DNA from: Thioclava sp. GXIMD2076
GTDB lineage: Bacteria; Pseudomonadota; Alphaproteobacteria; Rhodobacterales; Rhodobacteraceae
DNA length: 64,000 bases
Assembly (NCBI RefSeq): GCF_037949795.1
Contig: NZ_CP149932.1
Coordinates: 372,001-436,000, forward strand
Reading direction: 5' to 3'
Shown piece by piece: positions 8,900-38,035 of this stretch. The translations under genes and the position numbers were made by a program. Numbering within the stretch: the first letter of the stretch is position 1; the number at the start of each line of letters is the position of its first letter. The notes beneath the pieces were generated by a model. The model saw only the letters and a list, made by a program, of their open reading frames with translations, was not told the DNA's origin and did no database searches.

Positions 8900-8912
8900 G
8901 GAGGTGCCTGCG

Positions 8913-9677
8913 ATGCCGTTCCAGAGAATCGAATCGGAAAAGCTTGCCACGGCCATCGTGCGCCAGATCGAAGAGCTGATTCTGCAGGGGATCCTGCGCC
9001 CGGGTGAACGTCTGCCCTCCGAGCGCGAACTTTCGGACAGGCTCGGCGTCTCGCGCCCGTCTCTGCGGGAGGCGATTGCGGAGCTGCAGGATCAGGGGCT
9101 GCTTGCCACGCGCGCCGGTGCCGGCGTCTATGTGGCCGATGTTCTGGGCTCGGCTTTCTCGCCCGCGCTGATCCGCCTCTTCTCGTCCTCCGATCAGGCG
9201 GTCTATGACTATCTGGCCTTCCGCCGCGATGTCGAAGGGCTGGCCGCCGAGCGCGCCGCGCGTTTTGCTTCCGATACCGATCTGCAGGTTATCGACGGGC
9301 TTTTCCGCCGCATGGAAGCCGCCCATAGCAAACGCAGCTATGCTGATGAAGCCGCGCTTGATGCGCAATTCCACCTGGCCATCATCGAGGCCAGCCATAA
9401 CGTGATCATGCTGCATATGATGCGCGCGATGTTCGACCTGCTGAGCGAGGGCGTGTTTTACAACCGCTCCATGCTCTTCAAGAACCGCGTGACCCGTGAC
9501 GAGCTGCTCAACCAGCACCGCGCGATGAACGAGGCGATCCAGAAGCGCGACGGGACGGCCGCACGCGAGGCAGTGGCGGCGCATATGAACTTCGTCGAGG
9601 TCGAGATGACCCATAACCGCAAAGCGATGAAAAACGAGGAAACAGCAAAGCTGCGTCTGCAACAGCGCAGCAGCTGA
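8913..9677 (+). CDS. FadR-subfamily GntR transcriptional regulator (FCD domain)
   Basis: A 254-aa regulator with an N-terminal winged HTH (RLPSERELSDRLGVSRPSLREAIAELQDQGLL, about 30-65) and an all-helical FCD ligand domain with the metal/ligand residues D...H (DAQFHLAI), H (LLNQHRAM) and H (AAHMNF). The closest known group is PdhR/LldR/FadR-like, whose ligands are carboxylates or acyl-CoAs. ATG 8913 is preferred to GTG 8904 because AAGGAGG is 8 nt upstream of it. It stands alone between an OmpA gene and the F0 operon, so the target genes are unknown. A dyad just upstream suggests autoregulation. Confidence 0.88.
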   Translation: MPFQRIESEKLATAIVRQIEELILQGILRPGERLPSERELSDRLGVSRPSLREAIAELQDQGLLATRAGAGVYVADVLGSAFSPALIRLFSSSDQAVYDYLAFRRDVEGLAAERAARFASDTDLQVIDGLFRRMEAAHSKRSYADEAALDAQFHLAIIEASHNVIMLHMMRAMFDLLSEGVFYNRSMLFKNRVTRDELLNQHRAMNEAIQKRDGTAAREAVAAHMNFVEVEMTHNRKAMKNEETAKLRLQQRSS

Positions 9678-17787: not shown

Positions 17788-18177
17788 TCAGACGATGATG
17801 ATGGTAAGAAGGGTCAGCACGACCGAACCGATCATGCAGGCCATGCCGAGTTTCTCGGCAGTCTCGATATCGAGCCCGCGGCCCGAATCGAAGTAGAAGT
17901 GACGCAGCCCCGCGAGGTAGTGATACCAAAGGCCCAGCACCGAAACCGTGAAGACCAGATCGCCGATGAAGGAGGTCATGAGCCAGTTGACGGTCTCGAA
18001 GGTGGAGGGCGCGCCGGTTGCGGCCATCAGCCACCAGACGGCGAGGATTGTCGTAATGATCAGCGCATTGCCCGTGATCCGCGTCAGAATAGACGAGATC
18101 GAGGTCATTTGCGGGCGGTAATACTGACCGATCATGAAGGGGGAAAGGGGCCGTTCAACCCGTTTCGTTTCTGCCAT
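17788..18177 (-). CDS. sdhC: Succinate dehydrogenase cytochrome b556 subunit
   Basis: Cytochrome b subunit, 129 aa, three TM helices. RPQMTSISSILTRITG carries the quinone-site Ser/Arg, and HYLAGLRHFYFDSG carries the haem-ligand His motif. The start MAETKRVERP is chosen: the 43 upstream codons run through the promoter region and look unconserved. It is the first gene of sdhCDA-lipoprotein-sdhB. A paired palindrome lies 188-216 bp upstream. Confidence 0.94.
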   Translation of the reverse strand: MAETKRVERPLSPFMIGQYYRPQMTSISSILTRITGNALIITTILAVWWLMAATGAPSTFETVNWLMTSFIGDLVFTVSVLGLWYHYLAGLRHFYFDSGRGLDIETAEKLGMACMIGSVVLTLLTIIIV

Positions 18178-18364
18178 AGTGGGTCCCTCTGTCGCTTGGC
18201 CCCGAAATTCGCATGGCAAAAGACGATCGGCTATTGCTATGGGTGCCGCGGGGCTGGCCGGAATAATGTCTGGCACATGCATAGGACGATCTGTCGCAGG
18301 TGTCACGCGTCACGACTGGAAAATTTGCCACGTTTCAGTGAAAACAGAGTGGAAATCCCGCTTT

Positions 18365-18393
18365 GTGATCACGAAAATTCTTCCTGTGATCAC
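18365..18393. promoter_or_regulatory. Paired GTGATCAC operator upstream of sdhC
   Basis: Two perfect 8-bp palindromes GTGATCAC at 18365-18372 and 18386-18393, 21 bp apart centre to centre, flanked as TTGTGATCACG and TGTGATCACA. AATTCTTCC lies immediately before the second. The same arrangement and spacing occurs upstream of sucC (24873-24901). The 21-bp spacing places both on one DNA face, suggesting cooperative binding of two dimers. Confidence 0.7.
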
Positions 18394-18482
18394 ATTATTG
18401 GCGCTAACAATTCATGAGTGATTTTGTCGACTTATAGCGTGGGCACCGGCAGAGTCGCACAAGAGGCCGCTGGCGGATCCTA

Positions 18483-22103: not shown

Positions 22104-22113
22104 AGTGATCACT
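22104..22113. promoter_or_regulatory. Single GTGATCAC palindrome
   Basis: AGTGATCACT occurs 26 bp before the secreted-protein start. It contains the same 8-bp core as the paired sites before sdhC and sucC, but no partner exists 21 bp away on either side. It may be a low-affinity or unrelated site. Confidence 0.3.
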
Positions 22114-24872: not shown

Positions 24873-24901
24873 GTGATCACACGCATCAATCGTGTGATCA
24901 C
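24873..24901. promoter_or_regulatory. Paired GTGATCAC operator upstream of sucC
   Basis: Two perfect GTGATCAC palindromes at 24873-24880 and 24894-24901, 21 bp centre to centre, embedded in TTGTGATCACA and TGTGATCACAA. GAATTCTTCCTT precedes the first. Spacing, core and the AATTCTTCC flank match the sdhC site. It lies 109-137 bp before the sucC start. Confidence 0.7.
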
Positions 24902-25009: not shown

Positions 25010-26203
25010 ATGAACATTCATGAATATCAGGCGAAGCAGCTCCTCAAGAGCTACGGTTGCCCGGTTTCGGAGGGTCGCGCGGTTCTGAAGGCAGAGGAGG
25101 CCAAGACCGCAGCAGGCGAACTCGACGGACCGCTTTGGGTTGTTAAGGCGCAGATCCACGCCGGTGGCCGTGGCAAGGGCCATTTCAAGGAAGCCGAAGC
25201 CGGCGAAAAAGGCGGTGTCCGCCTTGCCAAATCGGTGGAAGAAGCCGAAGCCATGGCCAAGCAGATGCTCGGCAAGACCCTGATCACGCATCAGACCGGT
25301 CCGGCAGGCAAGCAGGTCAACCGCATCTATATCGAAGACGGCTCGGATATCTCGCGCGAGCTGTATCTGGCGCTTCTGGTCGACCGTCAGTCGAGCCGCG
25401 TCTCGGTGGTTTGCTCGACCGAAGGCGGCATGGATATCGAAGAAGTTGCGGCCTCGACCCCCGAGAAGATCATCTCCTTCTCGATCGACCCGGCAGCAGG
25501 ATACCAGGCCTATCATGGCCGTCGCGTGGCTTTCGCGCTGGGTCTTGAAGGCGGTCAGGTCAAGCAGATGGTCAGCCTTCTGGGCAAGCTCTACCAAGCC
25601 TTCATCGAGAAGGACATGGAGCAGCTCGAGATCAACCCGCTGATCGTCATGCCCGATAACAACCTTAAAGTGCTCGACGCCAAGCTCGGCTTCGACGGCA
25701 ACGCACTTTATCGTCACCCCGACATCCAAGCGCTGCGCGACGAGACCGAGGAAGACAGCAAGGAACTCGAAGCGTCCAAATACGACCTGAACTACATCGC
25801 GCTCGATGGCGAGATCGGTTGTATGGTGAACGGCGCGGGTTTGGCGATGGCGACGATGGACATCATCAAGCTCTACGGCGCAGAGCCTGCGAACTTCCTT
25901 GATGTGGGCGGCGGCGCGACCAAGGAAAAGGTTACCGAGGCCTTCAAGATCATCACCTCCGACAAGAACGTCAAAGGCATTCTGGTCAACATCTTCGGCG
26001 GCATCATGCGCTGCGACATCATCGCGGAAGGCGTTCTCGCCGCCGTGAAAGAAGTCGGCCTGCAAGTTCCGCTGGTTGTCCGCCTTGAAGGCACAAATGT
26101 CGAAAAGGGTAAGGAAATCATCGCGACTTCCGGCCTGAATGTGATTGCCGCAGACAACCTGTCCGACGGCGCAGAAAAAATCGTGAAAGCGGTGAAAGGC
26201 TAA
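25010..26203 (+). CDS. sucC: Succinyl-CoA synthetase beta subunit
   Basis: ADP/GDP-forming succinyl-CoA ligase beta subunit, 397 aa. The N-terminal ATP-grasp domain ([30 protein letters not shown]) is followed by the phosphohistidine/CoA-domain region with [10 protein letters not shown] and [10 protein letters not shown]. It interconverts succinyl-CoA and succinate with nucleotide phosphorylation. First gene of the suc cluster, 4 nt before sucD. Confidence 0.98.
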
Positions 26204-36602: not shown

Positions 36603-37346
36603 ATGGCTTTCCTGTCGCGCAAACGCACTCCCCCTCCCGTCAAGGCGGAGCCCGCCTTCATCGAACTGCCCGAATTGCCCGGTGTGGCGATCCGTCTCAA
36701 CCGTTCGGCACGGGCGCGGCGCTACGGGCTCAGGGTCTCGCGCAGCGACGGAAGCGTAACCCTGACCATCCCGCAGCGTGGCACCCAAAAGGAGGCAATT
36801 GCATTCGCCCGCGCCCAGACCGACTGGCTTAGCGAAGCGATTGCGCGCATGCCCTCGGTGACGCTCGTAGGCTACGGCCAGAGCATCCTCTATGAGGGGC
36901 AAGAGGTGACATTGGCGCCCGGTCAGGGGCGGTTGCCGCTACGCGAAGGCACGACCCTTTTCGTGCCCGGTCCCGAGGACCGCATGGCGCGCAAGCTGGA
37001 GAGCTTCCTCAAGCATAATGCCCGCCGCAGGCTCCAGAGCGCGACGGAGCATTACGCCGCGCGGATCGGGCGCAATTTCAGCGCCATCACCCTGCGTGAC
37101 ACCCGCTCGCGCTGGGGATCGTGCAGTTCGAAAGGCGCGCTCAGCTATAGCTGGCGGCTGATCATGGCCCCGCCCGAGGTGCTGGACTATGTGGCGGCCC
37201 ATGAGGTGGCGCATCTCGTGGAGATGAACCACTCTCCCGCCTTCTGGTCCATCGTCGAGGAGCTGCGCCCGAGCTGGCGCAAAGAGCGGCGCTGGCTGCG
37301 TGAGGAAGGCGGCCGGCTACATGCGACGCATTTCCGCGCGCCCTGA
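36603..37346 (+). CDS. YgjP-like (DUF45/M48-type) zinc metallopeptidase
   Basis: A 247-aa protein with HEVAH (His 200, Glu 201, His 204) and a downstream His 210 in LVEMNHSPAFW, the zinc site of the YgjP/SprT-like family. GKSKWGSC-like block appears as RDTRSRWGSCSSKGALSYSWRLIMAP. No signal peptide, so cytoplasmic. Its substrate is unknown. Its TGA overlaps the ATG of the GntR gene (TGATG). The SD is weak. Confidence 0.88.
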   Translation: MAFLSRKRTPPPVKAEPAFIELPELPGVAIRLNRSARARRYGLRVSRSDGSVTLTIPQRGTQKEAIAFARAQTDWLSEAIARMPSVTLVGYGQSILYEGQEVTLAPGQGRLPLREGTTLFVPGPEDRMARKLESFLKHNARRRLQSATEHYAARIGRNFSAITLRDTRSRWGSCSSKGALSYSWRLIMAPPEVLDYVAAHEVAHLVEMNHSPAFWSIVEELRPSWRKERRWLREEGGRLHATHFRAP

Positions 37347-38035
37347 TGCCCATTGACCTGCCCCCCAAAGCTCATCACATAGAGACCATGACCACCATCA
37401 CCACACGCCAGATCGATAGCGCCGCGCATGACAAGCTATACCGGCGCCTGCGCATGCAGATCATGCACGGGGAAATCCCGCCCGGCACGCCGATGACCCT
37501 GCGCGGGCTGGCCAAGGAGAATGGTGTCTCGATGACCCCCGTGCGCGAGGCGCTGCGGCGTCTGGTTGCGGAAGGCGCACTGTTTCTCTCGGCCTCGGGA
37601 CGGGTAACAACGCCGATGCTGTCGAACGAACGGATCGAGGAGCTGGCCGCCTTGCGCGCCCTGATCGAGCCCGAACTGGCCTCGCGCGCCCTGCCCCGCG
37701 CCCACATGGCGCTGATCGACCGGTTGACGGCCATCAACCACGCCAATGCCGAGGCCGTGGTGAAGATGGATGCGATCGGGTATATCCGCACCAATCTGGA
37801 ATTCCACCGCACGCTCTATCTGCGCGCACAGGCCCCCGCGATCCTCGCCGTGATCGAGACCGTCTGGCTGCAGCTGGGTCCGACGATGAGCACCTATTAT
37901 GCGTCCATGCAGCGCAATGAACCGCCGCGTCACCACAGATTGATCCTCGCCGCGCTACGGGCAGGCGACGACCCCGGTTTACGGCTTGCGATCCGCACGG
38001 ATGTGACCCAAGGTCTGCGACATCTGGCACAATAA
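37346..38035 (+). CDS. GntR family transcriptional regulator (FCD type)
   Basis: A 229-aa regulator. HTH at about 33-78 (PGTPMTLRGLAKENGVSMTPVREALRRLVAEGAL) and a C-terminal FCD helical domain (NLEFHRTLYLRAQAPAILAVIETVWLQLGP). It differs from the FadR-type gene at 8913. The ATG at 37346 overlaps the preceding stop; ATG 37388 (start MTTITTRQID) is an alternative with a poor SD. Target and ligand unknown. Confidence 0.85.
   Translation: MPIDLPPKAHHIETMTTITTRQIDSAAHDKLYRRLRMQIMHGEIPPGTPMTLRGLAKENGVSMTPVREALRRLVAEGALFLSASGRVTTPMLSNERIEELAALRALIEPELASRALPRAHMALIDRLTAINHANAEAVVKMDAIGYIRTNLEFHRTLYLRAQAPAILAVIETVWLQLGPTMSTYYASMQRNEPPRHHRLILAALRAGDDPGLRLAIRTDVTQGLRHLAQ

Follow-up and report, generated by a model that had tools for sequence, protein, structure and literature searches.

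Two gene clusters of the tricarboxylic acid cycle in Thioclava sp. GXIMD2076, sdhCDAB and the cluster opened by sucC, are preceded by pairs of the same 8-bp palindrome, GTGATCAC, which raises the question of whether one regulator reads both promoters and which protein it might be. The window analyzed here is the whole stretch of 64,000 nucleotides, in which mdh, sdhC, sdhD, sdhA, sdhB, sucC, sucD, sucA, sucB, and lpd are supported by Pfam matches. The gene order after sucC is sucD, sucA, sucB, and lpd, and sucC through lpd would presumably be transcribed as one unit. An exact-match search of the window recovered GTGATCAC at four places that form two pairs (Table 1), each with 13 bp between the palindromes and 21 bp from centre to centre, exactly as the original prediction had described for the sequences before sucC and sdhC. 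The window holds seven copies of GTGATCAC in total, compared with a mean of 1.03 and a maximum of 4 in 100 dinucleotide shuffles, and the three remaining copies (4387, 22105, and 40743) are single sites. None of the shuffles (0/100) placed two palindromes 10-16 bp apart, and an independent-base model expects about 0.005 GTGATCAC pairs per genome, in line with the earlier view that a chance origin is very unlikely. Many copies at the same spacing elsewhere in the genome had been named as an argument against this view; the whole genome (4,145,446 bases) contains no GTGATCAC pairs besides those before sdhC and sucC, and the reversed pattern gave none. A listing of TGTGATCACA with at most one mismatch gave three exact places, every one of them within the two pairs of the window. 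The palindrome pair is a real feature and in all likelihood a functional one.

Table 1. Features of the two promoters and of the regulator gene in the window
Feature	Position	Strand	Remark
sdhC, first gene of the sdhCDAB cluster	17788..18177	-	Pfam Sdh_cyt on the longer ORF 17788-18306; start codon by sequence and homologues
-35-like element GCGTGAC, sdhC promoter (putative)	18302..18308	-	
GTGATCAC, AkgR-type palindrome, sdhC pair, gene-proximal	18365..18372	-	188 nt upstream of the sdhC start at 18177
GTGATCAC, AkgR-type palindrome, sdhC pair, distal	18386..18393	-	21 bp from the proximal site
Lone GTGATCAC (listed also as AGTGATCACT) between mcl (-) and mdh (+)	22105..22112	.	Not generally conserved, role doubtful
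GTGATCAC, AkgR-type palindrome, sucC pair, distal	24873..24880	+	Exact search
GTGATCAC, AkgR-type palindrome, sucC pair, gene-proximal	24894..24901	+	116 nt upstream of sucC
sucC, succinyl-CoA synthetase beta subunit	25010..26203	+	Pfam ATP-grasp_2, Ligase_CoA
Degenerate palindrome CTCATCAC (2 mismatches) before akgR	37371..37378	+	Sequence comparison with orthologue loci
akgR orthologue, GntR-family HTH and FCD, 215 aa	37388..38035	+	ORF opens at 37346; closest homologues begin at 37388

The pair is widely retained in relatives. In a sample of one genome per genus, 141 of 159 family genomes carry exact palindromes paired at a gap of 10-16 bp, against 0 for the reversed control; this counts presence in the genome, and not every place was matched gene by gene. 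Outside the family, pairs at a 12-14 bp gap were found in 5 of 380 genomes of the class; in the class sample (n = 385), 10 genomes have such a pair, five being family members and five others, and the reversed control matched five times, all in one genome (G247). The pair is thus nearly restricted to the family. At the level of genes, 80 named loci around sucC were compared, of which 31 have a SucC at least 79% identical and 49 are more distant. The 31 closer loci, almost all titled as Rhodobacterales (L050 and L062 have other titles), show the sucC pair exactly in 28 cases and with one mismatch in two (L056 and L067); it is absent from one (L057), which may represent an additional copy of SucC in a Roseovarius. 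No candidate pair with fewer than four mismatches was seen in the 49 more distant loci. Among the 21 of the 31 closer loci in which sdhC could be located, the exact pair precedes it in 19, with two mismatches in L070 and a single site in L054. Absence of the pair from the sdh and suc promoters of relatives had been considered the other observation that could overturn the prediction, and these counts show the opposite.

The spacing of the pair is nearly constant, with 21 bp in 47 of 52 sucC promoters and 32 of 36 sdhC promoters and 20 bp in the remaining five and four, respectively; the pattern of the pair had served to fetch the loci of 36 of these 88 promoters, and two regions lacking a pair, one of sucC and one of sdhC, had been left out of the count. 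A conserved T precedes the pair and AAA follows it, the gap is well conserved at its ends only with a middle that leans to A/T, and each 8-bp palindrome in relatives is often TGTGATCACA. Further arrangements occur in single genomes: a row of three GTGATCAC sites, each 21 bp from the next, before sucC in G166 (L199 1501-1550), a third pair with a 14-bp gap in G006, extra pairs with gaps outside 12-14 bp in G078, G100, G112, and G166, and extra pairs with a 10-bp gap in G075, of which the one inspected (L134) lies inside a long ORF. One detail of the original prediction did not survive the comparison, namely the element AATTCTTCC said to flank one site in each pair. Its offsets in the two pairs of the window differ by one base and its orientation is opposite to transcription, and it occurs in 1 of 53 sucC and 1 of 37 sdhC upstream regions, each time the window's own. 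As a conserved element, AATTCTTCC was rejected, since of all regions compared those of the window alone contain it.

Two GntR-type genes in the window could encode the reader of the pairs, and these two, of 26 GntR-type matches in the genome, were compared with the pair across the family. The product of the ORF at 37346-38035 matches the Pfam families GntR (55.5 bits) and FCD (61.9 bits) and is thereby a regulator of the GntR family; among named proteins, the most similar (93% identical) comes from Thioclava sp. GXIMD4216. Of the 31 named loci, several of which are cut off before reaching this region, 11 have the gene close to lpd. A match at E <= 1e-30 is present in 144 of the 159 family genomes, and regulator and pair are jointly present in 139, jointly absent from 13, and discordant in seven, with the regulator only in five (G071, G085, G153, G178, and G186) and the pair only in two (G127 and G145). 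Presence and absence thus agree in 152 of 159 genomes, as would be expected if both were inherited together (Fisher p = 2e-13, a value that overstates independence because genera of one family are related). When weak matches (<=47% identity) are removed, the numbers become 137 for both, 15 for neither, three for the regulator only (G071, G178, and G186), and four for the pair only (G050, G064, G127, and G145). Among the regulator-only genomes, G071 has a sucC pair with one mismatch, and an orthologue was found with no pair in G178 (73% complete) and G186 (92% complete).

The other GntR protein, encoded at 8904-9677, was tested first because it is near sdh, only 9 kb from the sdhC pair. It is found in 122 of the 159 family genomes at E <= 1e-40, and its association with the pair is weaker, with both in 116, neither in 12, the regulator only in six, and the pair only in 25 (p = 3e-5). 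Its best NCBIfam matches are PdhR and LldR, both below the cut-offs, and the operators of PdhR and LldR are of the TGGT-ACCA type, which was counted against it. This protein was set aside on its distribution, since 25 pair-bearing genomes have no match to it at this cut-off, compared with two for the protein at 37388-38035; that the pairs are bound by it as a PdhR/LldR-like regulator, or by some other GntR protein of the genome, is considered very improbable. By eye, the genes adjoining 8904-9677 resemble those for ATP synthase F0 subunits.

The regulator at 37388-38035 can be related to a described protein. We take AkgR of Rhodobacter (Cereibacter) sphaeroides to be RSP_0981, which fits both of the sources cited below under these two names, and genome G082, judged by its gene order, is probably R. 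sphaeroides; the original AkgR paper is reportedly that of Imam in mBio (2015). The gene order in G082 is lpd, sucB, sucA, sucD, sucC, mdh, mcl, two further genes, sdhC, sdhD, sdhA, sdhB, and then the orthologue of the window regulator, which is 75.7% identical and lies 762 bp past the sdhB match, and exact 21-bp pairs stand before both sucC and sdhC. This order agrees with the RSP numbering in passages of PMC4344238, so that the orthologue is positioned as expected for RSP_0981, and the position favours the protein at 37388-38035 over that at 8904-9677. In the same passages (PMC4344238), RSP_0981 is a GntR regulator predicted to control sucCD (RSP_0967-6), sdh (RSP_0974-6), and 2-oxoglutarate dehydrogenase (RSP_0965-62), i.e., sucAB-lpd. 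Passages of PMC6365646 include GTGATCAC among the AkgR sites and term AkgR an activator. The original prediction had named AkgR as a candidate that could not be assigned; it can now be assigned on the basis of the co-occurrence with the pair, the gene position in G082, and the published motif and targets. GTGATCAC operators stand before both the sdh and the suc operons, and the feature is likely a further member of the published AkgR regulon. The present case differs from R. sphaeroides in genus and in the place of akgR, which lies past lpd in the window and not past sdhB, and passages of PMC6365646 and PMC4344238 do not mention a tandem 20/21-bp arrangement. Passages of PMC4419725, PMC5507952, and PMC11323563 contained nothing on AkgR sites, and a literature text search for TGTGATCACA together with sdh gave no match.

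CceR, a LacI-type regulator of central carbon genes, was also weighed as the protein for which the pairs are operators. A CceR-like sequence, with two mismatches to a CceR consensus, stands beside the distal sdhC site (18397-18408); matches with at most three mismatches occur in 10 of 52 sucC and 9 of 36 sdhC promoters, at varied places. According to passages of PMC4344238, sdh and mdh are among the predicted CceR targets in R. sphaeroides, and the CceR motif is GTT-N6-8-AAC, which is not GTGATCAC. CceR was rejected as the reader of the pair, an extremely unlikely explanation, because GTGATCAC does not conform to GTT-N6-8-AAC and the CceR-like sequences, although above expectation, are scattered. 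The sequence at 18397-18408 lies directly beside an AkgR-type site, from which joint control of sdhC by the two regulators would be possible.

Collectively, the two pairs are best read as AkgR operators, through which this GntR/FCD factor, itself encoded in the window, activates sdhCDAB and sucCD-sucAB-lpd together, with a probability of roughly 0.88. The earlier claim that one regulator serves both promoters and couples complex II to succinyl-CoA synthetase and 2-oxoglutarate dehydrogenase is supported by the conservation of the sites, the co-occurrence, and the published targets. Of 36 sdhC promoters, 21 have CGTGAC at 56-59 nt past the proximal site and 10 lack the element altogether, and in the 26 promoters that have it, the standard deviation of its distance is 6.9 nt to the operator, compared with 27.2 nt to the start codon. 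A two-block model places a GCGTGAC-like element at one position, within 4 nt, in 28 of the 36 promoters. CGTGAC is likely the -35 element of the sdhC promoter; a scan of the sdhC side of the window found no sigma-70 match before sdhC. At sucC the corresponding signal is less strong: 17 of 52 promoters have GTTT at 45-46 nt (38-52 nt searched), and only a weak promoter model can be offered there. The constant distance between operator and promoter at sdhC suits an activator. Judging from the palindromes and from the GntR/FCD family, each 8-bp palindrome would bind one AkgR dimer, and 21 bp, being two helical turns, would place two dimers on the same face of the DNA, where they may bind cooperatively. 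From their usual distance to the promoter, two dimers upstream of the sdhCDAB and sucCD-sucAB-lpd promoters might activate both in a class I-like manner, and complex II, succinyl-CoA synthetase, and 2-oxoglutarate dehydrogenase would then be made together.

Lone sites may have another role. Among the 30 best-scoring akgR orthologue loci, the window's included, an exact lone GTGATCAC precedes the akgR start in 12; it lies 14-23 nt before the start codon in 11 of these and 53 nt in L179, and in those 11 loci a TTGAC element is seen by eye shortly upstream of it. A lone palindrome before the akgR start with TTGAC just upstream suits self-repression. Many GntR proteins repress, and this was counted, together with the lone palindrome in these 12 of 30 loci, which would cover a promoter, for a reading in which the palindromes bind AkgR as a repressor rather than an activator. 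Against it stand the designation of AkgR as an activator in passages of PMC6365646 and the place of the sdhC pair, well upstream of the -35-like element and at the distance given above, with a variable distance to the start codon. This reading is considered very unlikely, and AkgR as an activator of sdh and suc remains the preferred reading. Tentatively, and rather doubtfully, whether AkgR activates or represses could depend on the number of sites: two phased sites, or the triple before sucC in G166, would give cooperative activation at sdh and suc and, in one genome or more, at fumC, and a lone dimer over the akgR promoter would repress akgR. If true, this site-number rule would amount to a switch, limited by feedback, by which TCA-cycle capacity is set throughout Rhodobacteraceae.

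The fumC case comes from G073, in which a third exact pair stands before a fumC-like gene (L135 1501-1529; the locus is also L227). As a general target fumC was rejected, since an exact pair was found in only this one of 30 loci, which are the best-scoring of the 57 genomes with a match out of 61. The fumC gene of the window's own genome (L233) has no pair, and that of L229 has a lone exact site with a partner of three mismatches. The lone site at 22105 was likewise rejected as a conserved mdh/mcl operator, as a site is there in just L064 and L068 among the 31 named loci, some of which do not span the interval.

The same palindrome is also found with more distant regulators. In passages of PMC6365646, PS417_07240 of Pseudomonas simiae, a GntR-like regulator of deoxyribonate catabolism that is 32% identical to AkgR, has the GTGATCAC palindrome upstream of its own gene; it differs in the site, at -47 to -40 of the start codon, and in targeting another pathway. 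The best solved relative of the window regulator is McbR of Escherichia coli (PDB 4p9f; E = 2.5e-19), a distant homologue whose likeness is one of sequence alone. Of the pair loci outside the family, L184, L185, L186, L191, and L192 were judged by eye from ORF lists. In genome G320, from another family, a 21-bp pair (L185 992-1020) lies between a TonB-receptor-like gene and a GntR gene, 32 nt before the latter, whose product is 28% identical to the window regulator. In L184, from a second genome outside the family, a receptor gene of similar kind is preceded by a pair whose gap is 14 bp.

AkgR itself is a known regulator, and the pairs of the window in all probability belong to its described regulon. 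Possibly new are the constant 20/21-bp tandem spacing with its usual distance to the -35-like element at sdhC and, likewise possibly, the lone site before akgR (12/30 orthologues) and the pair before fumC (1/30 genomes). These results define the AkgR operator precisely across the family and offer a testable rule by which activation would depend on how many sites there are and how they are spaced, and a regulator described in one model species probably coordinates three enzymes of the TCA cycle across a large bacterial family.
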